From NCBI GenBank assembly GCA_030426845.1, contig JAUHXR010000033.1, forward strand, positions 1-43,266: 43,266 bases of DNA, written 5' to 3'. The translations under genes were made by a program, and so were the position numbers. This DNA is from Polyangia bacterium (GTDB lineage: Bacteria > Myxococcota_A > Polyangia > Polyangiales > Sandaracinaceae). This document shows, in pieces, positions 35,584-43,266 of this stretch (position 1 is the stretch's first letter; each line of letters starts with the position of its first letter). The notes under the pieces were generated by a model. The model saw nothing but the letters and a program-made list of their open reading frames with translations, was not told the DNA's origin and did not search any database.

Positions 35584-37455
35584 GTGGGTCGGCGACCGAA
35601 GCGCGCGCGCCGGGGCCCGGCTCGCGGCCGATCTGGCCAGCCCCGATCGGACCAGCCCCGATCCAGCAAGGCGGGTGCAGACAAGACGCGCGCAGACAAG
35701 ACGCGCGCGGACAAGACGCGCTCGGGCCGCTCGAGGACGCCGCCGGGCGAGGCGCCGCCGCGCGACTGGGCCGGCATCGCGCGCGACGTCGGCCTGCTCC
35801 TCCTCAGCGCGGTCCTGATGTTCCTCGGCTTCGCCGGCTTCGGCGTCTGGCCGCTCGCGTTCGTCGGGATGGTCCCCGCGCTCTTCGTGTTCGACCGCCA
35901 CCCGCAGGGCTTCGCGTTCTTCTGGCGCGCGCTGCTCTTCGGCTACGTCGCCTACTACGGCGGCTTCTACTGGGTGGTGAACACGATCGTCGACTTCGGC
36001 GGCTTCCCCTACCTGCTCGCGCTCGCCTTCGCGTCGATCTACTTCCTCTACCAGGCCTTCGAGTTCGTCCTGATCCTCTGGCTGTGGCGGCGCGCGCGCG
36101 AGCGCGGCTGGAACGCCACCGCCTCCCTCGTCGCCGCCTACCTCGCGGCCGAGGCGGTCTTCCCCCAGCTGTTCGACCACTTCTACGGCAACAGCTTCCA
36201 CATGCTCCCGTACCTCACCCAGGTCGCCGACCTGGGCGGGCCGATGCTCTTGACCGCCCTCGCGATGGCAGGCAACGGCGCGGCCTACGAGCTGGTGCGC
36301 GCGCGGGTGCGCGGCGAGCCCTGGCCCCGCGTCGCCCCCGCGGTGTTCGCCGCCGCCGCCCTCTTCAGCGTCGGCTACTCCGCGTACCGGATCGGCGCGG
36401 TCGAGGCGCGGATGGCCGAGGCGGAGTCCATCACCGTCGGGGTCGTCCAGACCAACATGGGCATCCACGAGAAGTGGGAGGACCCGGGCGAAGGTCTGCG
36501 CCGACACGTCGCGCAGTCGCTCGCGCTCGAGGCCGAGGGCCCGCTCGACCTGCTCGTGTGGCCGGAGTCGGCCGCGTCGTTCCGCCTCCCGCGCGACCCG
36601 GGCGTCCCGGTGCGCCCGTTCTTCGAGCGCGCGCTCGACTTCTACCGCGTCGAGACCGACGGCTTCCCCGAGGCGCCGCTCGTCTTCGGCGGGCTCTCCT
36701 CGGACGGCGGCGGCGCGGACCGGCGCCTCTACAACACCGCGTTCATCACGGACGACGACGGCCGCATCGCGGCGCACTACGACAAGACCTACCTGCTCGC
36801 GTTCGGCGAGTACATCCCGTTCGGCGAGCAGTTCCCCCAGCTCTACGACTACTCGCCGAACACCGGGCACTTCCAGGCCGGCGACCACGTCCACCCGCTC
36901 CCGTTCCGCGACTACCGGGTGAGCGTGCTCGTCTGCTACGAGGACATCCTCCCTGGCTTCGTGCGCCGCTTCGTCCAGGAGGGCGACCCGCACCTGTTGG
37001 TGAACATCACCAACGACGCGTGGTTCGGCGACACGCAGGAGCCCTACGTCCACCTCGCGCTCGCGAAGATGCGGGCGATCGAGCACCACCGTTACCTCGT
37101 GCGCGCGACCAACACCGGCGTGAGCGCGATCATCGATCCGCTCGGGCGCGTGATCGAAGAGGGCCCGCTGTTCGAGAGCGCGTCGCTCCGCGGCGAGGTC
37201 CAGATGCTCGACGGCTGGACGCTCTACCAGACGGTCGGCGACTGGCCGGGCTACGCGGGGCTCGGCGCGATCGTGTTCTTCGCGTTCATCGGCCGGCGCC
37301 GCCGCAAGGAGCGCCGCGCGGACGAGGACAGCGACGAGCACAGCGACGAGGACGCCCGCGACGCGCCGCCTGCCGACTCTCCGAGGGACGAGCCTCCGAC
37401 GGACGAGGCGCCAGCAAAGCAGCCCGCGGCGCCGACGACCGAGGAGGAGGAGTGA
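35584..37455 (+). CDS. lnt: Apolipoprotein N-acyltransferase with basic N-terminal and acidic C-terminal extensions
   Basis: 623 residues from GTG 35584. The enzyme adds the third acyl chain to the N-terminal Cys of lipoproteins in the inner membrane. Six to seven hydrophobic helices (about 68-290) precede a carbon-nitrogen-hydrolase domain with the catalytic triad Glu328 (VWPESAASF), Lys401 (YDKTYLLAFGEYIPFGE) and Cys451 (VLVCYEDILP); NITNDAWFG follows. Unusual features are a Lys/Arg/Ser/Pro-rich N-terminal extension of about 62 residues containing KTRAD repeats, and a Glu/Asp-rich C-terminal tail after residue 575. It is longer than the usual 500-540. It overlaps the next gene by 4 bp (GTGA). 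Confidence 0.93.
   Translation: MGRRPKRARRGPARGRSGQPRSDQPRSSKAGADKTRADKTRADKTRSGRSRTPPGEAPPRDWAGIARDVGLLLLSAVLMFLGFAGFGVWPLAFVGMVPALFVFDRHPQGFAFFWRALLFGYVAYYGGFYWVVNTIVDFGGFPYLLALAFASIYFLYQAFEFVLILWLWRRARERGWNATASLVAAYLAAEAVFPQLFDHFYGNSFHMLPYLTQVADLGGPMLLTALAMAGNGAAYELVRARVRGEPWPRVAPAVFAAAALFSVGYSAYRIGAVEARMAEAESITVGVVQTNMGIHEKWEDPGEGLRRHVAQSLALEAEGPLDLLVWPESAASFRLPRDPGVPVRPFFERALDFYRVETDGFPEAPLVFGGLSSDGGGADRRLYNTAFITDDDGRIAAHYDKTYLLAFGEYIPFGEQFPQLYDYSPNTGHFQAGDHVHPLPFRDYRVSVLVCYEDILPGFVRRFVQEGDPHLLVNITNDAWFGDTQEPYVHLALAKMRAIEHHRYLVRATNTGVSAIIDPLGRVIEEGPLFESASLRGEVQMLDGWTLYQTVGDWPGYAGLGAIVFFAFIGRRRRKERRADEDSDEHSDEDARDAPPADSPRDEPPTDEAPAKQPAAPTTEEEE
35637..35721. repeat. 15-bp tandem repeats inside the 5' end of lnt
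   Basis: Two adjacent repeat families: CCAGCCCCGATC... units at 35637-35651 and 35652-35666, and GCAGACAAGACGCGC at 35677-35691, 35692-35706 and (one mismatch) 35707-35721. The 15-bp period keeps the frame and encodes the KTRAD repeats of the cytoplasmic extension. Confidence 0.8.
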
Positions 37456-38367: not shown

Positions 38368-39378
38368 GTGTCGAGACGCCTCCTCAGTGTCGTCCCTCCC
38401 CTGCTCGTCCTGGCCCTGCTGCTCGCGACGAGCGGGCCGGCCGAGGGCACGGCCTACTCGCGCGTGTTCATCAACGGCACCCCCGTCCCCGTCTACTTCA
38501 ACGACGGCGACAGCTTCCGCATCTTCGGCGGCGAGTTCCGCGGCAGCCAGTGCCGCCTCGCCGGCTTCAACACCCTCGAGAGCTTCGGCCCGGCGCACCA
38601 GTGGGGCGAGTGGCACCCCTACGAGCTCTACATCAACGCGAAGATGGCGACCTACAACGGCCGCCGCGGCACGTGGCACTGCGAGACCGACGGCTCGCGC
38701 GACGGCTACGGCCGCATCCTGATGGACTGCCCCGATCTGGCGGTCGATCAGATCCGCAACGGCTACGCCCACGCCTACCAGGTGGACGACACCCCGTCGC
38801 GCCCCGCGTACCTGCGCGCGCAGCAGGAGGCGATCCAGAACCGCCGCGGCATGTGGGCGCACGGCGTGCCCGACTACGTGATGACCTCGATCCACTCGGC
38901 GGACGAGGACCTCGGCCGGGACGTTCACTACAACCGCCTCGTCTCGGTGCGCGACGCGCACACCGAGAGCATGCAGCACCGCGACACCTACTCGGAGTGC
39001 AGCTGGATCTGCAACGACGAGATCCGCGTCGAGCTCCCGCCGATCGAGGCGGCCGCGCGCCGGCTGCGCGAGGACCCGCAGATCGGGCCGCTGCTCGCCG
39101 ACTTCTTCAACCTCCACCTCGTCGAGTTCGTCTCGCGCTACCGCCGCGTCGGTGAGCTGCCCGAGTACCTCGAGGGCGAGGCTCGGCCGCTCGTCGAACA
39201 GCGCCTCGCGCGCGAGCAGGCGCAGGGGATGCTCGGCGAGACCCGCACCGTCCGCGGCTCGTGCATGCTCCACGTGCCCTTCGATCGCCGCTACGGGCAG
39301 GACCGCGCCGAGTGCCTCCGCGGGCACGGCACGCCGCCGCCCGGCAGCCACTGGGCCAACCACGGGGGCCACCACTGA
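38368..39378 (+). CDS. Secreted staphylococcal-nuclease (SNase)-fold protein
   Basis: 336 residues from GTG 38368, signal peptide MSRRLLSVVPPLLVLALLLATSGPAEG. Residues 40-160 fit the SNase fold: NDGDSFRIF (Asp46-Asp48), CRLAGFNTLES, GYGRILMDC and the closing GMW motif. Against staphylococcal nuclease, the first calcium Asp (Asp48), Arg35 (here Arg63), Glu43 (Glu71) and Arg87 (Arg116) are kept, but calcium ligand Asp40 is Asn68. The C-terminal 170 residues are a helical, His/Arg-containing extension with several Cys and no recognised domain. It may be an exported nuclease with altered metal binding, or a non-catalytic nucleic-acid or protein binder. Its stop shares one base with the start of the repeat lipoprotein (TGATG). 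Confidence 0.8.
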   Translation: MSRRLLSVVPPLLVLALLLATSGPAEGTAYSRVFINGTPVPVYFNDGDSFRIFGGEFRGSQCRLAGFNTLESFGPAHQWGEWHPYELYINAKMATYNGRRGTWHCETDGSRDGYGRILMDCPDLAVDQIRNGYAHAYQVDDTPSRPAYLRAQQEAIQNRRGMWAHGVPDYVMTSIHSADEDLGRDVHYNRLVSVRDAHTESMQHRDTYSECSWICNDEIRVELPPIEAAARRLREDPQIGPLLADFFNLHLVEFVSRYRRVGELPEYLEGEARPLVEQRLAREQAQGMLGETRTVRGSCMLHVPFDRRYGQDRAECLRGHGTPPPGSHWANHGGHH

Positions 39379-41465
39379 TGCGCCGCACAACGACGATGGT
39401 AGGGAGCCGCGCCGCGCTCTCGTCCCTGGCGCTCGCCCTCGGCGGGCTCCTCCTCGGCGGCCCCGGCTGCTTCTCGCTCGACCTCGACGGCGACGGCGAC
39501 ATCGACGTGCCGCCCCGCGGCGGCGATGAGAGCGACTACATCAGCTGCTCGAACGGCCGCGACGACGACCTCGACGGACGCATCGACTGCGAGGACTCCG
39601 ACTGCCTGATGCGGGGCCACTGCGGCGAGCAGATCCCGATCCTCCCGCCGGTCGGCTACGAGAACACCTTCGAGACCTGCAGCAACGGGATCGACGACGA
39701 CGAGGACGGCCAGTTCGACTGCGGCGACCGCGGCTGCCAGAACATCCAGGAGCTGTGCTGCGCGATCGAGTTCGACGACGCCTCGTGCAGCAACCTCCTC
39801 GACGACGACGGCAACGGCTTCGCCGACTGCGCCGACTTCAGCTGCCGCAACAACCCCTACGTGACGGTGTGCAACGCCGAGACGGACTGCGGCGACGGCC
39901 TCGACAACGACGGCGATCGGCTCGCCGACTGCCGGGACGAGGACTGCCTCGACATCGCGCCCTGCTCGGAGTCCGACGACGACGAGTGCCGCAACGGCGA
40001 CGACGACGACGGCGACGGGCTCGTGGACTGCGAGGACCCGACCTGCTCGGGCTCCGCGCCCTGCCCGGCCGAGACCGACTGCACCAACGGCGCCGACGAG
40101 GACGGCGACGGGCGCACCGACTGCGAAGACCGCGACTGCTACATGGAGGACGTCTGCCTCGGGCCCGAGGGCAGCCTGGCGCGGTGCAGCGACGGCAACG
40201 ACAACGACGGCAACGGCTTCACGGACTGCGGCGACTTCGCCTGCACGATGGAGTCGCGGGGCGCGACCCCCGAGGCGGTCATGTTCTGCGCGACCCGCCC
40301 GGACGAGGACTGCGCCAACCGCGTCGACGACGACCACGACGGCAACGTCGACTGCGACGACCGCGACTGCCAGGGCACCCCGGCCTGTCCCCAGGAGGAC
40401 GACATGGTCGAGTGCTTCGACGGCGTGGACAACGACGATGACGGGTTCATCGACTGCGACGACTTCTCCTGCAACGACGTCGAGCGTGGCAACGCCGACC
40501 CGGCCGTCGCCGCGGCCTGCGCGGAGGCGGCCGAGAGCACGCTCGAAGAGTGCATGAACGGCATCGACGACGACGGCGACGACTTCACCGACTGCGCCGA
40601 CTTCAGCTGCTCGCGGGACGGCGACCCCGACGCGGTCGAGTTCTGCTCGACCATCAGCGAGACGAGCTTCGCCAACTGCCGAGACCGGATCGACAACGAC
40701 CGCAACGGCTTCACCGACTGCGCCGACTTCGGCTGCCAGTTCAGCTCGTTCGTCCTCGGGACGCAGTTCTGCGACACCGCCGCGGACTGCCCGGGCGCCA
40801 ACTACGTGTGCCGCGAGACCCGGCTGTCCAACCCGGAGAGCCGAAGCCGCGTCCCGTTCTGCTTCGCGGAGTGCGCGGGGGCCGGCGACTGCGCGCCCGG
40901 GTGGGAGTGCCAGAACGTCACGGTCCCGGGCGGCTCGCTGCCCATCTGCGTCCACACCTGCAGCACCGACGCGGACTGCCCGCTCGGCGACTCGTGCTTC
41001 GCCGGCGCGTGCCTCGCCATCCGCAGCCCCTGCTCGGAGAGCGTCTTCGCGAACGAGGACAGCAACTTCCAGGAGGACTCCGCGATCACCACCGCGACCT
41101 GCGGAGAGCAGCTCGCGATGGCCACCCGGAGCTGCACCGACGGCGTCGACGGTGATCGGGACGGGTTCGCCGACTGCTACGACTGGGAGTGCAACCACAA
41201 CCCACGCGTGCGCGTGGTGCCCTCCGGCCTGAGGCCCGACGACTGCTTTGTCGAGCAGGAGCCGGGCAGCGCCGTCTGCACGCCTGCCGTCGGCGCCAAC
41301 GGCGTTCCCCTCTGCCCGCCGCTGTGTCGCTACACGGGCGGACGCACCTGCGCGCTGGGGCCCCAAGCGGGTCAGGCCTGCGCGACGGACGCGGACTGCT
41401 CCGACATCCCCGACGCCTGCTCGCTCCCCGGCCCGCGCGGCCGCGAGCTCGTCTGCCCCCAGTAG
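39378..41465 (+). CDS. Lipoprotein with twelve 20-residue Cys/Asp repeats
   Basis: 695 residues from ATG 39378, signal ending LLLGGPGC (lipobox-like). From Cys57 to Cys453 there are eleven copies, and one more from Cys586, of a 20-residue unit: C-x-N/D-x-x-D-x-D-x-D/N-G-x-x-D-C-x-D-x-x-C (fixed C-x13-C-x4-C). The DxDxDG core resembles calcium-binding loops, and the three cysteines would allow disulphides within or between units. Between repeat eleven and twelve are sections of the D-x-DCP-x-x-x-x-C type common in myxobacterial secreted proteins. It is coupled to the SNase gene by TGATG and followed by the barrel gene carrying the same repeat. Codon use matches the neighbours. Confidence 0.82.
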   Translation: MRRTTTMVGSRAALSSLALALGGLLLGGPGCFSLDLDGDGDIDVPPRGGDESDYISCSNGRDDDLDGRIDCEDSDCLMRGHCGEQIPILPPVGYENTFETCSNGIDDDEDGQFDCGDRGCQNIQELCCAIEFDDASCSNLLDDDGNGFADCADFSCRNNPYVTVCNAETDCGDGLDNDGDRLADCRDEDCLDIAPCSESDDDECRNGDDDDGDGLVDCEDPTCSGSAPCPAETDCTNGADEDGDGRTDCEDRDCYMEDVCLGPEGSLARCSDGNDNDGNGFTDCGDFACTMESRGATPEAVMFCATRPDEDCANRVDDDHDGNVDCDDRDCQGTPACPQEDDMVECFDGVDNDDDGFIDCDDFSCNDVERGNADPAVAAACAEAAESTLEECMNGIDDDGDDFTDCADFSCSRDGDPDAVEFCSTISETSFANCRDRIDNDRNGFTDCADFGCQFSSFVLGTQFCDTAADCPGANYVCRETRLSNPESRSRVPFCFAECAGAGDCAPGWECQNVTVPGGSLPICVHTCSTDADCPLGDSCFAGACLAIRSPCSESVFANEDSNFQEDSAITTATCGEQLAMATRSCTDGVDGDRDGFADCYDWECNHNPRVRVVPSGLRPDDCFVEQEPGSAVCTPAVGANGVPLCPPLCRYTGGRTCALGPQAGQACATDADCSDIPDACSLPGPRGRELVCPQ

Positions 41466-42124
41466 TCACGAAAAGGACCGTGATCGAGATGACAAGCCTC
41501 TGGCGAACGAACGGGCTCGGTGCGGCGGCCGTCCTCTGCCTGCTCATCGGCTCGCGCGCGATGGCGCAGGCCCCCGAGGGCGACGGGTCGATCGAGGGCT
41601 CCAGCGACGTCGTCGACCAGGGCATGGGCGACCCGGCGGTCGATCTCACCCCTCCGCAGCCCGCGACGCCCCCCGTCGCGCCCCAGCCCGCGACGCTCAC
41701 CCGTGAGTCGGTGTGCAACGACCGGCAGGACGACGACGGCGACGGCCTCGCCGACTGCGCGGACGCGGACTGCTTCGACAGCAGCTACTGCCAGGCCGGC
41801 GGCTCCGAGGAGCGCACGAACCGCGCGTGCAGCGACTGGATCGACAACGACGGCGACGGCGCGGTCGACTGCGAGGACGACGACTGCAGCGGCGACCACA
41901 TCACCGTCTGCGGCGGCTCGTTCAGCGGCGGCGCGGCGGGCGGCGGCGCGGGGCTCAGCAACCCGGCCGACCAGGACGAGATCCCGGAGCTCGAGGGCGA
42001 CATGAGCGTCGAGGACCTCGTGGGCCGGATGGGCGACGTCGACGGCGAGCGCAACGACTACCTCTGCTCCGACGGCGTCGACAACGACGGCGACGGACGC
42101 ACCGACTGCCAGGACTTCGGCTGC
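39546..42124 (+). repeat. Fifteen dispersed copies of a 60-bp repeat coding for the C-x13-C-x4-C unit
   Basis: Twelve copies lie in the lipoprotein gene (39546-40736 for eleven, one from 41133) and three in the barrel gene (first from 41714, last ending 42124). Most share GAC GGC/GAC-rich cores and a GACTGC followed by GAC. Copies diverge at the DNA level more than at Cys, Asp and Gly positions, indicating selection on the protein motif. Confidence 0.75.
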
Positions 42125-43246
42125 CGCTTCGACCCCTCGGTCACCGTCTGCTCGAGCGCGCCGGGCATCCGCTTCAGCGTGGTCGCCGGCATCGCGGGCA
42201 GCCTCCGGATCGACGAGACCCCGGACATCGACGGCGACGGCTTCACCGAGTACACGGACCCGGCCGGCGACGTGCGCTTCACGCGCATCCAGCTCCGCGC
42301 CCTCGGCCCGATCCCGTTCATCCAGAACTCGTTCTTCCTGATCAACCTGCGGGCCGAGCGGACGCTGCGGATGACCTTCGCGACGTTCAACATCCCGATC
42401 AGCAACGAGGGCCACTACATCTCGCTCAACAGCGGCTCGGGCGGCCTGAGCCCGGGCCTGATCGTGTCGACGTCGAAGCAGCCCCTGCTCGACCCGCCGT
42501 TCTACCTCTTCAACGCCTTCGAGCGCGGCAACGGCGCGGCCCTCGAGGTCGGCGGCCCGATCACGAGCGACAACATGCTTCGCTTCCGTGTGTTCGCGGC
42601 CGGCGGCTCGGGCGAGTTCAACGGCAACGTCGGCGGGCGCTTCTTCCGCAGCGACGAGCGCAACTTCAGCTACGCGGGCGGCGCGCAGCTCCACGTCAAC
42701 CTGGTGGGCCAGTACGATCGCTTCGACACGCCCTACCTCTACACGCCGGTGCCCCTCACCGCGGCGATCACGGCCGGCGCCCGCTTCGATCAGCGCCCCG
42801 TCGAGCGCTACGTCGCGTGGAACGTCTTCGGGACGCTGCGCTTCTGGCACCTCTCGTTCCGCGCGGAGAGCTACAGCCGCTACGTCCTCGACTTCGACGG
42901 CATCCAGACGGCGTGGAACTTCCAGGCGTCGGTGCTCCTCATCCCGCGGACCCTCATGCTCGCGGCCGACGTCGGCGGCTTCTTCGTTCCGCTCGAGTAC
43001 GATCCGGCCGTCCTCGCCGAGGTCGGCGGCTTCAGCTCCGAGTTCCGCGAGCCGATCGAGCAGTTCCAGTGGCGCGTGGCGATGCACTGGTACTACTTCC
43101 GCAACATCGGGATCCTGAGCTTGCTGTACTCGATGAACATCGAGTGCCAGCAGGTCTTCGGCGACTCGTGCACGCCCGCCGAGGCCACCCCGGACGCGGC
43201 GCTGACCGAGCACGAGGTCCGGCTCGAGGCGCAGTTCCGGTTCTGA
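41489..43246 (+). CDS. Predicted outer-membrane beta-barrel protein with three N-terminal Cys/Asp repeats
   Basis: 585 residues from ATG 41489 (GTG 41480 is in frame), signal peptide MTSLWRTNGLGAAAVLCLLIGSRAMA. Residues 76-212 hold three copies of the C-x13-C-x4-C Asp-rich unit found in the upstream lipoprotein, separated by Gly/Ala linkers. From about residue 220 to the end the sequence alternates polar and aromatic residues in short strands (RLRFWHLSFRAESYSRYVLDF-like blocks, WRVAMHWYYFRNIGILSLLYSMN) and ends EVRLEAQFRF, with a terminal Phe as expected for BAM-assembled barrels. It is likely an outer-membrane porin or receptor whose repeat region faces the periplasm or surface. Only 20 bp of window remain after its stop. 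Confidence 0.75.
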   Translation: MTSLWRTNGLGAAAVLCLLIGSRAMAQAPEGDGSIEGSSDVVDQGMGDPAVDLTPPQPATPPVAPQPATLTRESVCNDRQDDDGDGLADCADADCFDSSYCQAGGSEERTNRACSDWIDNDGDGAVDCEDDDCSGDHITVCGGSFSGGAAGGGAGLSNPADQDEIPELEGDMSVEDLVGRMGDVDGERNDYLCSDGVDNDGDGRTDCQDFGCRFDPSVTVCSSAPGIRFSVVAGIAGSLRIDETPDIDGDGFTEYTDPAGDVRFTRIQLRALGPIPFIQNSFFLINLRAERTLRMTFATFNIPISNEGHYISLNSGSGGLSPGLIVSTSKQPLLDPPFYLFNAFERGNGAALEVGGPITSDNMLRFRVFAAGGSGEFNGNVGGRFFRSDERNFSYAGGAQLHVNLVGQYDRFDTPYLYTPVPLTAAITAGARFDQRPVERYVAWNVFGTLRFWHLSFRAESYSRYVLDFDGIQTAWNFQASVLLIPRTLMLAADVGGFFVPLEYDPAVLAEVGGFSSEFREPIEQFQWRVAMHWYYFRNIGILSLLYSMNIECQQVFGDSCTPAEATPDAALTEHEVRLEAQFRF

Positions 43247-43266
43247 TCCCCGGGCTCCGCGTCGCG

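Follow-up and report, generated by a model that had tools for sequence, protein, structure and literature searches.

Why should an exported nuclease-like protein, a lipoprotein and an outer-membrane barrel be encoded in one row, and what might they do together? The question is raised by three consecutive plus-strand genes at positions 38368-43246 of the window (the whole stretch of 43,266 nucleotides analysed here, which is an entire contig, C38, of a 9.4 Mb assembly in 538 contigs). An earlier reading (hereafter the original prediction) had described the first gene, SN1, as encoding a protein with the staphylococcal nuclease (SNase) fold, the second, LP, a lipoprotein with twelve repeats, and the third, BB, a beta-barrel with three further copies, and had proposed that LP and BB associate and could display the nuclease at the cell surface. 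Direct reading of the sequence confirmed the three open reading frames and both of the predicted junctions: the stop codon of SN1 (TGA) and the ATG of LP share one base in the sequence TGATG, while BB follows LP after 23 bp (Table 1).

Table 1 Features of the SN1-LP-BB locus and of the adjoining contig. Coordinates refer to the window unless another contig is named.
Feature	Position	Strand	Description
SN1	38368..39378	+	336 aa, GTG start; exported staphylococcal-nuclease-fold protein
SN1 Sec-type signal	about residues 1-27		predicted
SNase domain of SN1	38458..38865	+	about residues 31-166
LP, repeat lipoprotein	39378..41465	+	695 aa, ATG start at 39378
LP Cys31, putative lipidation site	39468..39470	+	atypical GGPG-C; Cys kept at the equivalent place in relatives
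LP, 12 acidic double-disulphide repeats (NF033662)	39546..41192	+	first Cys at residues 57, 101, 137, 171, 204, 235, 270, 312, 346, 392, 434, 586
BB, outer-membrane protein	41489..43246	+	585 aa, C-terminal 16-stranded barrel ending in RF
BB Sec-type signal	about residues 1-26		predicted
BB, three N-terminal NF033662 repeats	41714..42151	+	first Cys at residues 76, 114, 193; predicted periplasmic
BB porin-fold barrel, 16 strands	42170..43243	+	residues 228-585; predicted model
Overlap with contig C188 (L091)	43140..43266	+	127 bases, identical
SN2, second SNase lipoprotein	C188:193-852		equivalent to window position 43332 onwards

Linkage and distribution of the gene row

An alignment of the barrel domain, with the repeats left out, was scanned against 84,980 species genomes and returned 59 loci, the most distant barrels of which share about 36% identity with the query. 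The titles of these entries are all myxobacterial or uninformative ('Deltaproteobacteria', 'Proteobacteria', 'bacterium'), and the carriers include Enhygromyxa salina, Nannocystis and Paraliomyxa (Paraliomyxa miuraensis). Upstream sequence was sufficient in 54 of these loci, and all 54 show SN1, LP and BB in this order on one strand; the other 5 of the 59 are contig ends. Counted by pattern across the 54 loci, LP carries 7-18 repeats, and BB carries three in 53 loci and two in one. A draw of 377 Myxococcota genomes, which overlaps the 59-locus scan so that the two counts are not independent samples, contained BB in 60 genomes, always as a single copy, with a strong SN1 in 60 of 60; one further genome has a strong SN1 at a contig end. 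The original prediction had named rare co-occurrence in related genomes as evidence against a unit. We looked for it and found the opposite in all testable loci.

Beyond the trio the outer neighbours vary, and clustering of the flanking genes revealed no family in more than 9 of the 59 loci. Since the linkage is invariable and no outer neighbour family exceeds this number, the trio SN1-LP-BB is the unit. Its parts belong to known families, and our literature search found no paper describing the gene set as a module, in agreement with the earlier statement that no such system was known. Such strict conservation of an undescribed gene row points to a real function, which could be tested in the cultured Enhygromyxa salina and Paraliomyxa miuraensis. 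The upstream Lnt and alpha/beta-hydrolase genes were rejected as parts of the system; they adjoin the trio in close relatives, outside of which other genes stand in their place. The Lnt (apolipoprotein N-acyltransferase) gene, at 35584-37452, precedes the trio in several genomes of the own family and in none beyond it.

In its own family, the gene row continues past the end of the window. The last 127 bases of the window are the first 127 of contig C188 in the same assembly, and the next gene there, SN2, starts 85 bp after BB by the contig join. The product of SN2, a lipoprotein of 219 aa, has a canonical SNase domain (PF00565, E 6.9e-14, 52.6 bits; thermonuclease, E 6.4e-23) and the invariant residues D93, D95, R111, E119 and R160. 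The gene follows BB in 10 of 10 genomes of the own family (f1). When 96 relatives were examined, strong relatives of SN2 (E<=1e-57) turned up in 15 genomes, each of which carries the trio; this association has a probability of about 6e-10 under independent genomes, and the genomes are not independent. A search of the 9.4 Mb own genome found no SNase-family gene besides SN1 and SN2. Thus, the predicted extent holds for the three genes, and its end boundary falls one gene short. In two genomes of another family, f12 (L087, L089), the region upstream of SN1 holds SN2 and a further repeat lipoprotein in divergent orientation.

The SNase fold of SN1

SN1 passes PF00565 marginally (21.7 bits against a gathering cut-off of 21), and staphylococcal nuclease is the only significant PDB match of its AlphaFold2 model (pLDDT 92.9; Foldseek, prob 1.00), which bears out the predicted fold. 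Other fold identities were rejected, and the phmmer matches to MamM (E above 0.1) are chance. An alignment of the SN1 and SN2 profiles (hhalign prob 97), together with the published motif, places the catalytic Arg/Glu/Arg positions at R63, E71 and R116, with D48; we take the catalytic and metal-ligand roles of these residues from Staphylococcus aureus SNase. D46, D48, R63, N68, E71 and R116 are invariant in 49 relatives, and so are the six Cys residues among the relatives of SN1.

SN1 thus resembles the staphylococcal nuclease/thermonuclease family in its fold, its DGD motif and its catalytic Arg/Glu/Arg positions. It differs from other PF00565 SNases in several respects: six invariant Cys residues, a C-terminal extension, an invariable place beside LP and BB in the cluster genomes, and two substitutions in the D-[TA]-P-E motif. 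There, the metal-ligand Asp is replaced by the invariant N68 and the Pro by Leu (L70), while D48 of the DGD motif is retained. Because of these two replacements, the activity or metal use of SN1 may differ from that of SNases. A shorter SN1-like gene (L151-L168), encoding about 230-300 aa, is solitary in 17 Myxococcota genomes that lack the barrel, and several cluster genomes carry it in addition to SN1. No LP or BB lies beside this shorter gene in the flanking regions that were read; it is a paralogue, and the linkage of the trio is unbroken by it.

Acidic repeats and a porin-fold barrel

LP contains no lysine, 158 Asp and Glu residues and 71 Cys residues. By pattern, it holds exactly 12 repeats and BB exactly three, as predicted, and the NCBIfam model NF033662, 'acidic double-disulfide repeat', scores 249.9 bits on LP (12 stretches) and 85.2 bits on BB (three stretches). 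Since these scores far exceed the curated cut-off of 41, the repeats are not a chance pattern. All 15 agree with NF033662 with no difference at the level of the repeat; what is unusual, compared with other NF033662 proteins, is that a lipoprotein made purely of repeats is paired with a porin that also bears them. The assignment of LP as a lipoprotein draws on its relatives: its own lipobox (GGPG-C31) is atypical, and nearly all relatives with a visible start have a Cys that closes the hydrophobic signal a short distance ahead of the repeats.

Human teneurin-4 (7plp) has a C-rich domain to which the profile built from BB relatives (A1) gives a match with an E value of 3.2e-7. In this domain, eight acidic side chains together with an Asn hold three calcium ions; it also contains three disulphides and stabilises a compact scaffold (PMC9058538). 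We mapped its nine side-chain ligand positions onto 722 bacterial repeats (545 from LP, 177 from BB). Positions +2, +5, +6, +7, +9, +13 and +16 are Asp, Glu or Asn in 97-100% of them, where +5, +7, +9 and +13 were partly used to select the repeats and the fully independent positions are +2, +6 and +16. At the other two, -3 and +18, these residues occur in 36% and 38% of LP repeats and in 97% and 62% of BB repeats. The bacterial repeats therefore resemble the teneurin domain in the sequence match and in the spacing of Cys and calcium-ligand residues. They differ from it in that two of the nine ligand positions vary in LP, in having four Cys residues each rather than the six of the teneurin-type domain (disulphides 1-3, 2-5 and 4-6), and in forming tandem arrays within an unrelated protein context. 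Calcium binding by the LP and BB repeats is likely from this homology, which favours the calcium and disulphide role suggested earlier. In these tandem repeats, bacteria have relatives of the C-rich domain with which neuronal teneurins bind calcium, a kinship for which we found no published statement.

The original prediction took the shared repeats as a sign that LP and BB associate. Association draws its evidence from the conserved linkage; repeat sharing itself is poor evidence of LP-BB binding, because about a dozen other contigs of the own genome carry the NF033662 repeat, and we set it aside as proof. These contigs are C499, C461, C378, C245, C106, C124, C143, C387, C278, C273, C182 and C361. 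A 1240-aa frame on C461 holds some 17 copies.

As LP is nearly nothing but repeats and the homologous teneurin-4 domain stabilises a compact scaffold (PMC9058538), LP and BB could mainly form a calcium-stiffened periplasmic tether, with SN1 as a structural or binding protein, a role with which the Asn at position 68 is also compatible. The invariance of the residues at the catalytic positions of SN1 and the recurrence of further nucleases beside the trio argue against such a tether, and we regard it as quite unlikely.

The structure model of BB shows 16 strands between residues 228 and 584, in line with the predicted beta-barrel (overall pLDDT 78.5, with mostly 80-97 in the barrel and lower values at the N-terminus). 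The best matches of the barrel in VIA-align are OprO (Z 25.4) and OprP (Z 25.2), with an rmsd of 3.2-3.3 Å over 294-298 residues, followed by PorB (Z 23.1). Membership in PF07396, the family of these phosphate porins, was rejected: BB has no Pfam match at E<=1, hhalign gives a probability of at most 27%, and the fold alone matches. For this reason we call BB a porin fold by its model and not a proven OprP relative. The N-terminal repeats and the co-encoded nuclease are further differences from OprP and OprO. A search for an arginine ladder like that of the OprP/OprO lumen yielded eight conserved basic and four conserved acidic residues in the predicted lumen of BB, for which a residue mapping to OprP is impossible.

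These features of the barrel suggest that BB might import phosphate or nucleotides released by SN1 and SN2, in a system for phosphate and nucleoside scavenging. The closest solved folds are polyphosphate-selective (OprO) and phosphate-selective (OprP), and the predicted orientation of the eight basic residues is towards the lumen; the four acidic residues in the same predicted lumen, the unsupported PF07396 membership and the flanking-gene clustering, in which no phosphatase or nucleoside transporter recurs near the trio in the 59 loci, weigh against such a channel. We consider it a tentative and somewhat doubtful possibility. A parallel by role is provided by Vibrio cholerae, in which the exported nucleases Dns and Xds are combined with the outer-membrane nucleotide channel OmpK (PMC4723616). 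The trio differs from that system in that a single conserved row of genes encodes it, including a lipoprotein of predicted calcium-binding repeats, and its nutrient role is putative.

In 16-stranded porins, both ends are periplasmic, and the third repeat of BB ends seven residues ahead of strand 1. Because the repeats directly precede this strand, they should be periplasmic, by the model and by analogy with porins. The N-terminal residues of OprP are described as periplasmic (PMC4849052). The periplasm is where an inner-leaflet lipoprotein and SN1, exported through Sec, would encounter these repeats of BB, although some myxobacterial lipoproteins may be surface-exposed.

This predicted orientation disfavours the proposed display at the cell surface, in which LP and BB would associate outside through their repeats and hold SN1 there to degrade extracellular or prey DNA. 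The conserved Cys of LP and the calcium ligands of the repeats are compatible with such an arrangement, and the extracellular nucleases of V. cholerae are known to feed porins (PMC4723616). Against it, besides the position of the BB repeats directly before strand 1, SN1 carries a Sec signal only, with no visible route across the outer membrane. Surface display is therefore unlikely in our estimation.

Nucleic-acid genes beside the trio and a candidate envelope module

Further nucleic-acid genes recur near the trio. Other SNases are found in L139, L144, L145 and L146, and exported EEP-nuclease lipoproteins flank the trio in four loci (L115, L119, L134 and L148, the last matching PF19580/PF03372). 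Such nuclease genes are rare: in 12 genomes, SNase matches number 0-3 and PF19580 matches 0-1 per genome, and the sole PF19580 gene of one of the genomes (G041) lies about 1.2 kb from SN1. In 19 of the 21 genomes of one family (f26), spanning several genera, a ComEC gene (PF03772 with DUF4131 and a metallo-beta-lactamase domain) directly follows BB on the same strand; the loci with ComEC after BB include L101, L107, L116, L121, L122, L128, L137 and L147. Nine f26-like loci have an ExbB-like gene before SN1, and eight of these have the full ExbB-ExbD-ExbD set. Where the ComEC loci extend far enough upstream, this set immediately precedes SN1. The ComEC-trio arrangement is probably one ancestral arrangement that has long been retained. 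The original prediction described the trio correctly; it missed SN2 and the ComEC and additional nuclease genes that accompany the trio in other lineages. Anti-phage defence was also considered and provisionally set aside: PADLOC gives no match for SN1, LP or BB, and SN2 matches one SNase-domain model only.

With ComEC directly after BB and the Exb genes before SN1, SN1 might be a periplasmic entry nuclease of the ComEC import route, the Gram-negative counterpart in role of EndA and NucA. This arrangement is confined to one family, the own family has its ComEC elsewhere in the genome, and duplex DNA does not fit through a porin, all of which make a role in DNA uptake improbable. There is a precedent in the entry nucleases EndA and NucA, and many transformable bacteria have no identified entry nuclease (PMC8579336). 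Compared with EndA and NucA acting with ComEC, the trio likewise provides an exported nuclease-like protein, with ComEC adjacent in f26 only; it differs in its SNase-fold enzyme, its outer-membrane partners and its Gram-negative setting, and its transformation role is putative, suggested by the gene adjacency to ComEC.

The reading that we prefer, at a probability of about 0.5, is that SN1, LP and BB, with SN2 in the own family, form one myxobacterial envelope module that processes nucleic acids at the outer membrane; this confidence overlaps with those of the alternatives, some of which are special cases of it. BB would form a 16-stranded porin-like channel whose three calcium-filled, disulphide-locked repeats would hang into the periplasm, and LP would be a lipid-anchored rod composed almost wholly of NF033662 repeats, so that the repeats would provide a stable, calcium-loaded scaffold. 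SN1, as a soluble, disulphide-rich candidate nuclease exported with LP and BB, would probably be held at the LP/BB assembly. Nucleic acid or its fragments at the outer membrane would be cut by SN1 and, where present, by SN2, and the products would serve as nutrient or, where ComEC shares the gene row in f26, possibly pass to ComEC. The module would resemble porin-lipoprotein-hydrolase scavenging systems in role.

Several observations count against the envelope module. N68 and the Leu-for-Pro substitution in SN1 do not follow the SNase motif, the EEP nucleases accompany the trio in four loci only, and the ComEC link, which may go back to a single event, is limited to one family. In addition, NF033662 repeats occur in many other proteins of the own genome, and the orientation is taken from a predicted model and porin precedent. 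Myxobacteria are both predators and scavengers, and the handling of nucleic acids at their envelope is little described. Since the module connects an exported nuclease-like protein with a porin, and with ComEC in one of its lineages, it becomes testable whether DNA processing has an outer-membrane partner.

A more ambitious version of the envelope module is a dedicated Myxococcota machine for nucleic-acid import and processing, in which the porin, the calcium-loaded lipoprotein rod and the docked SNase would constitute a periplasmic station, and in which one family would couple this station to an ExbB-ExbD-ExbD motor and ComEC, giving a full route from the outer membrane to the cytoplasm. We consider this machine, as a whole, unlikely. 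The ExbB-ExbD-ExbD set upstream of SN1 resembles AglR-AglQ-AglS in composition.
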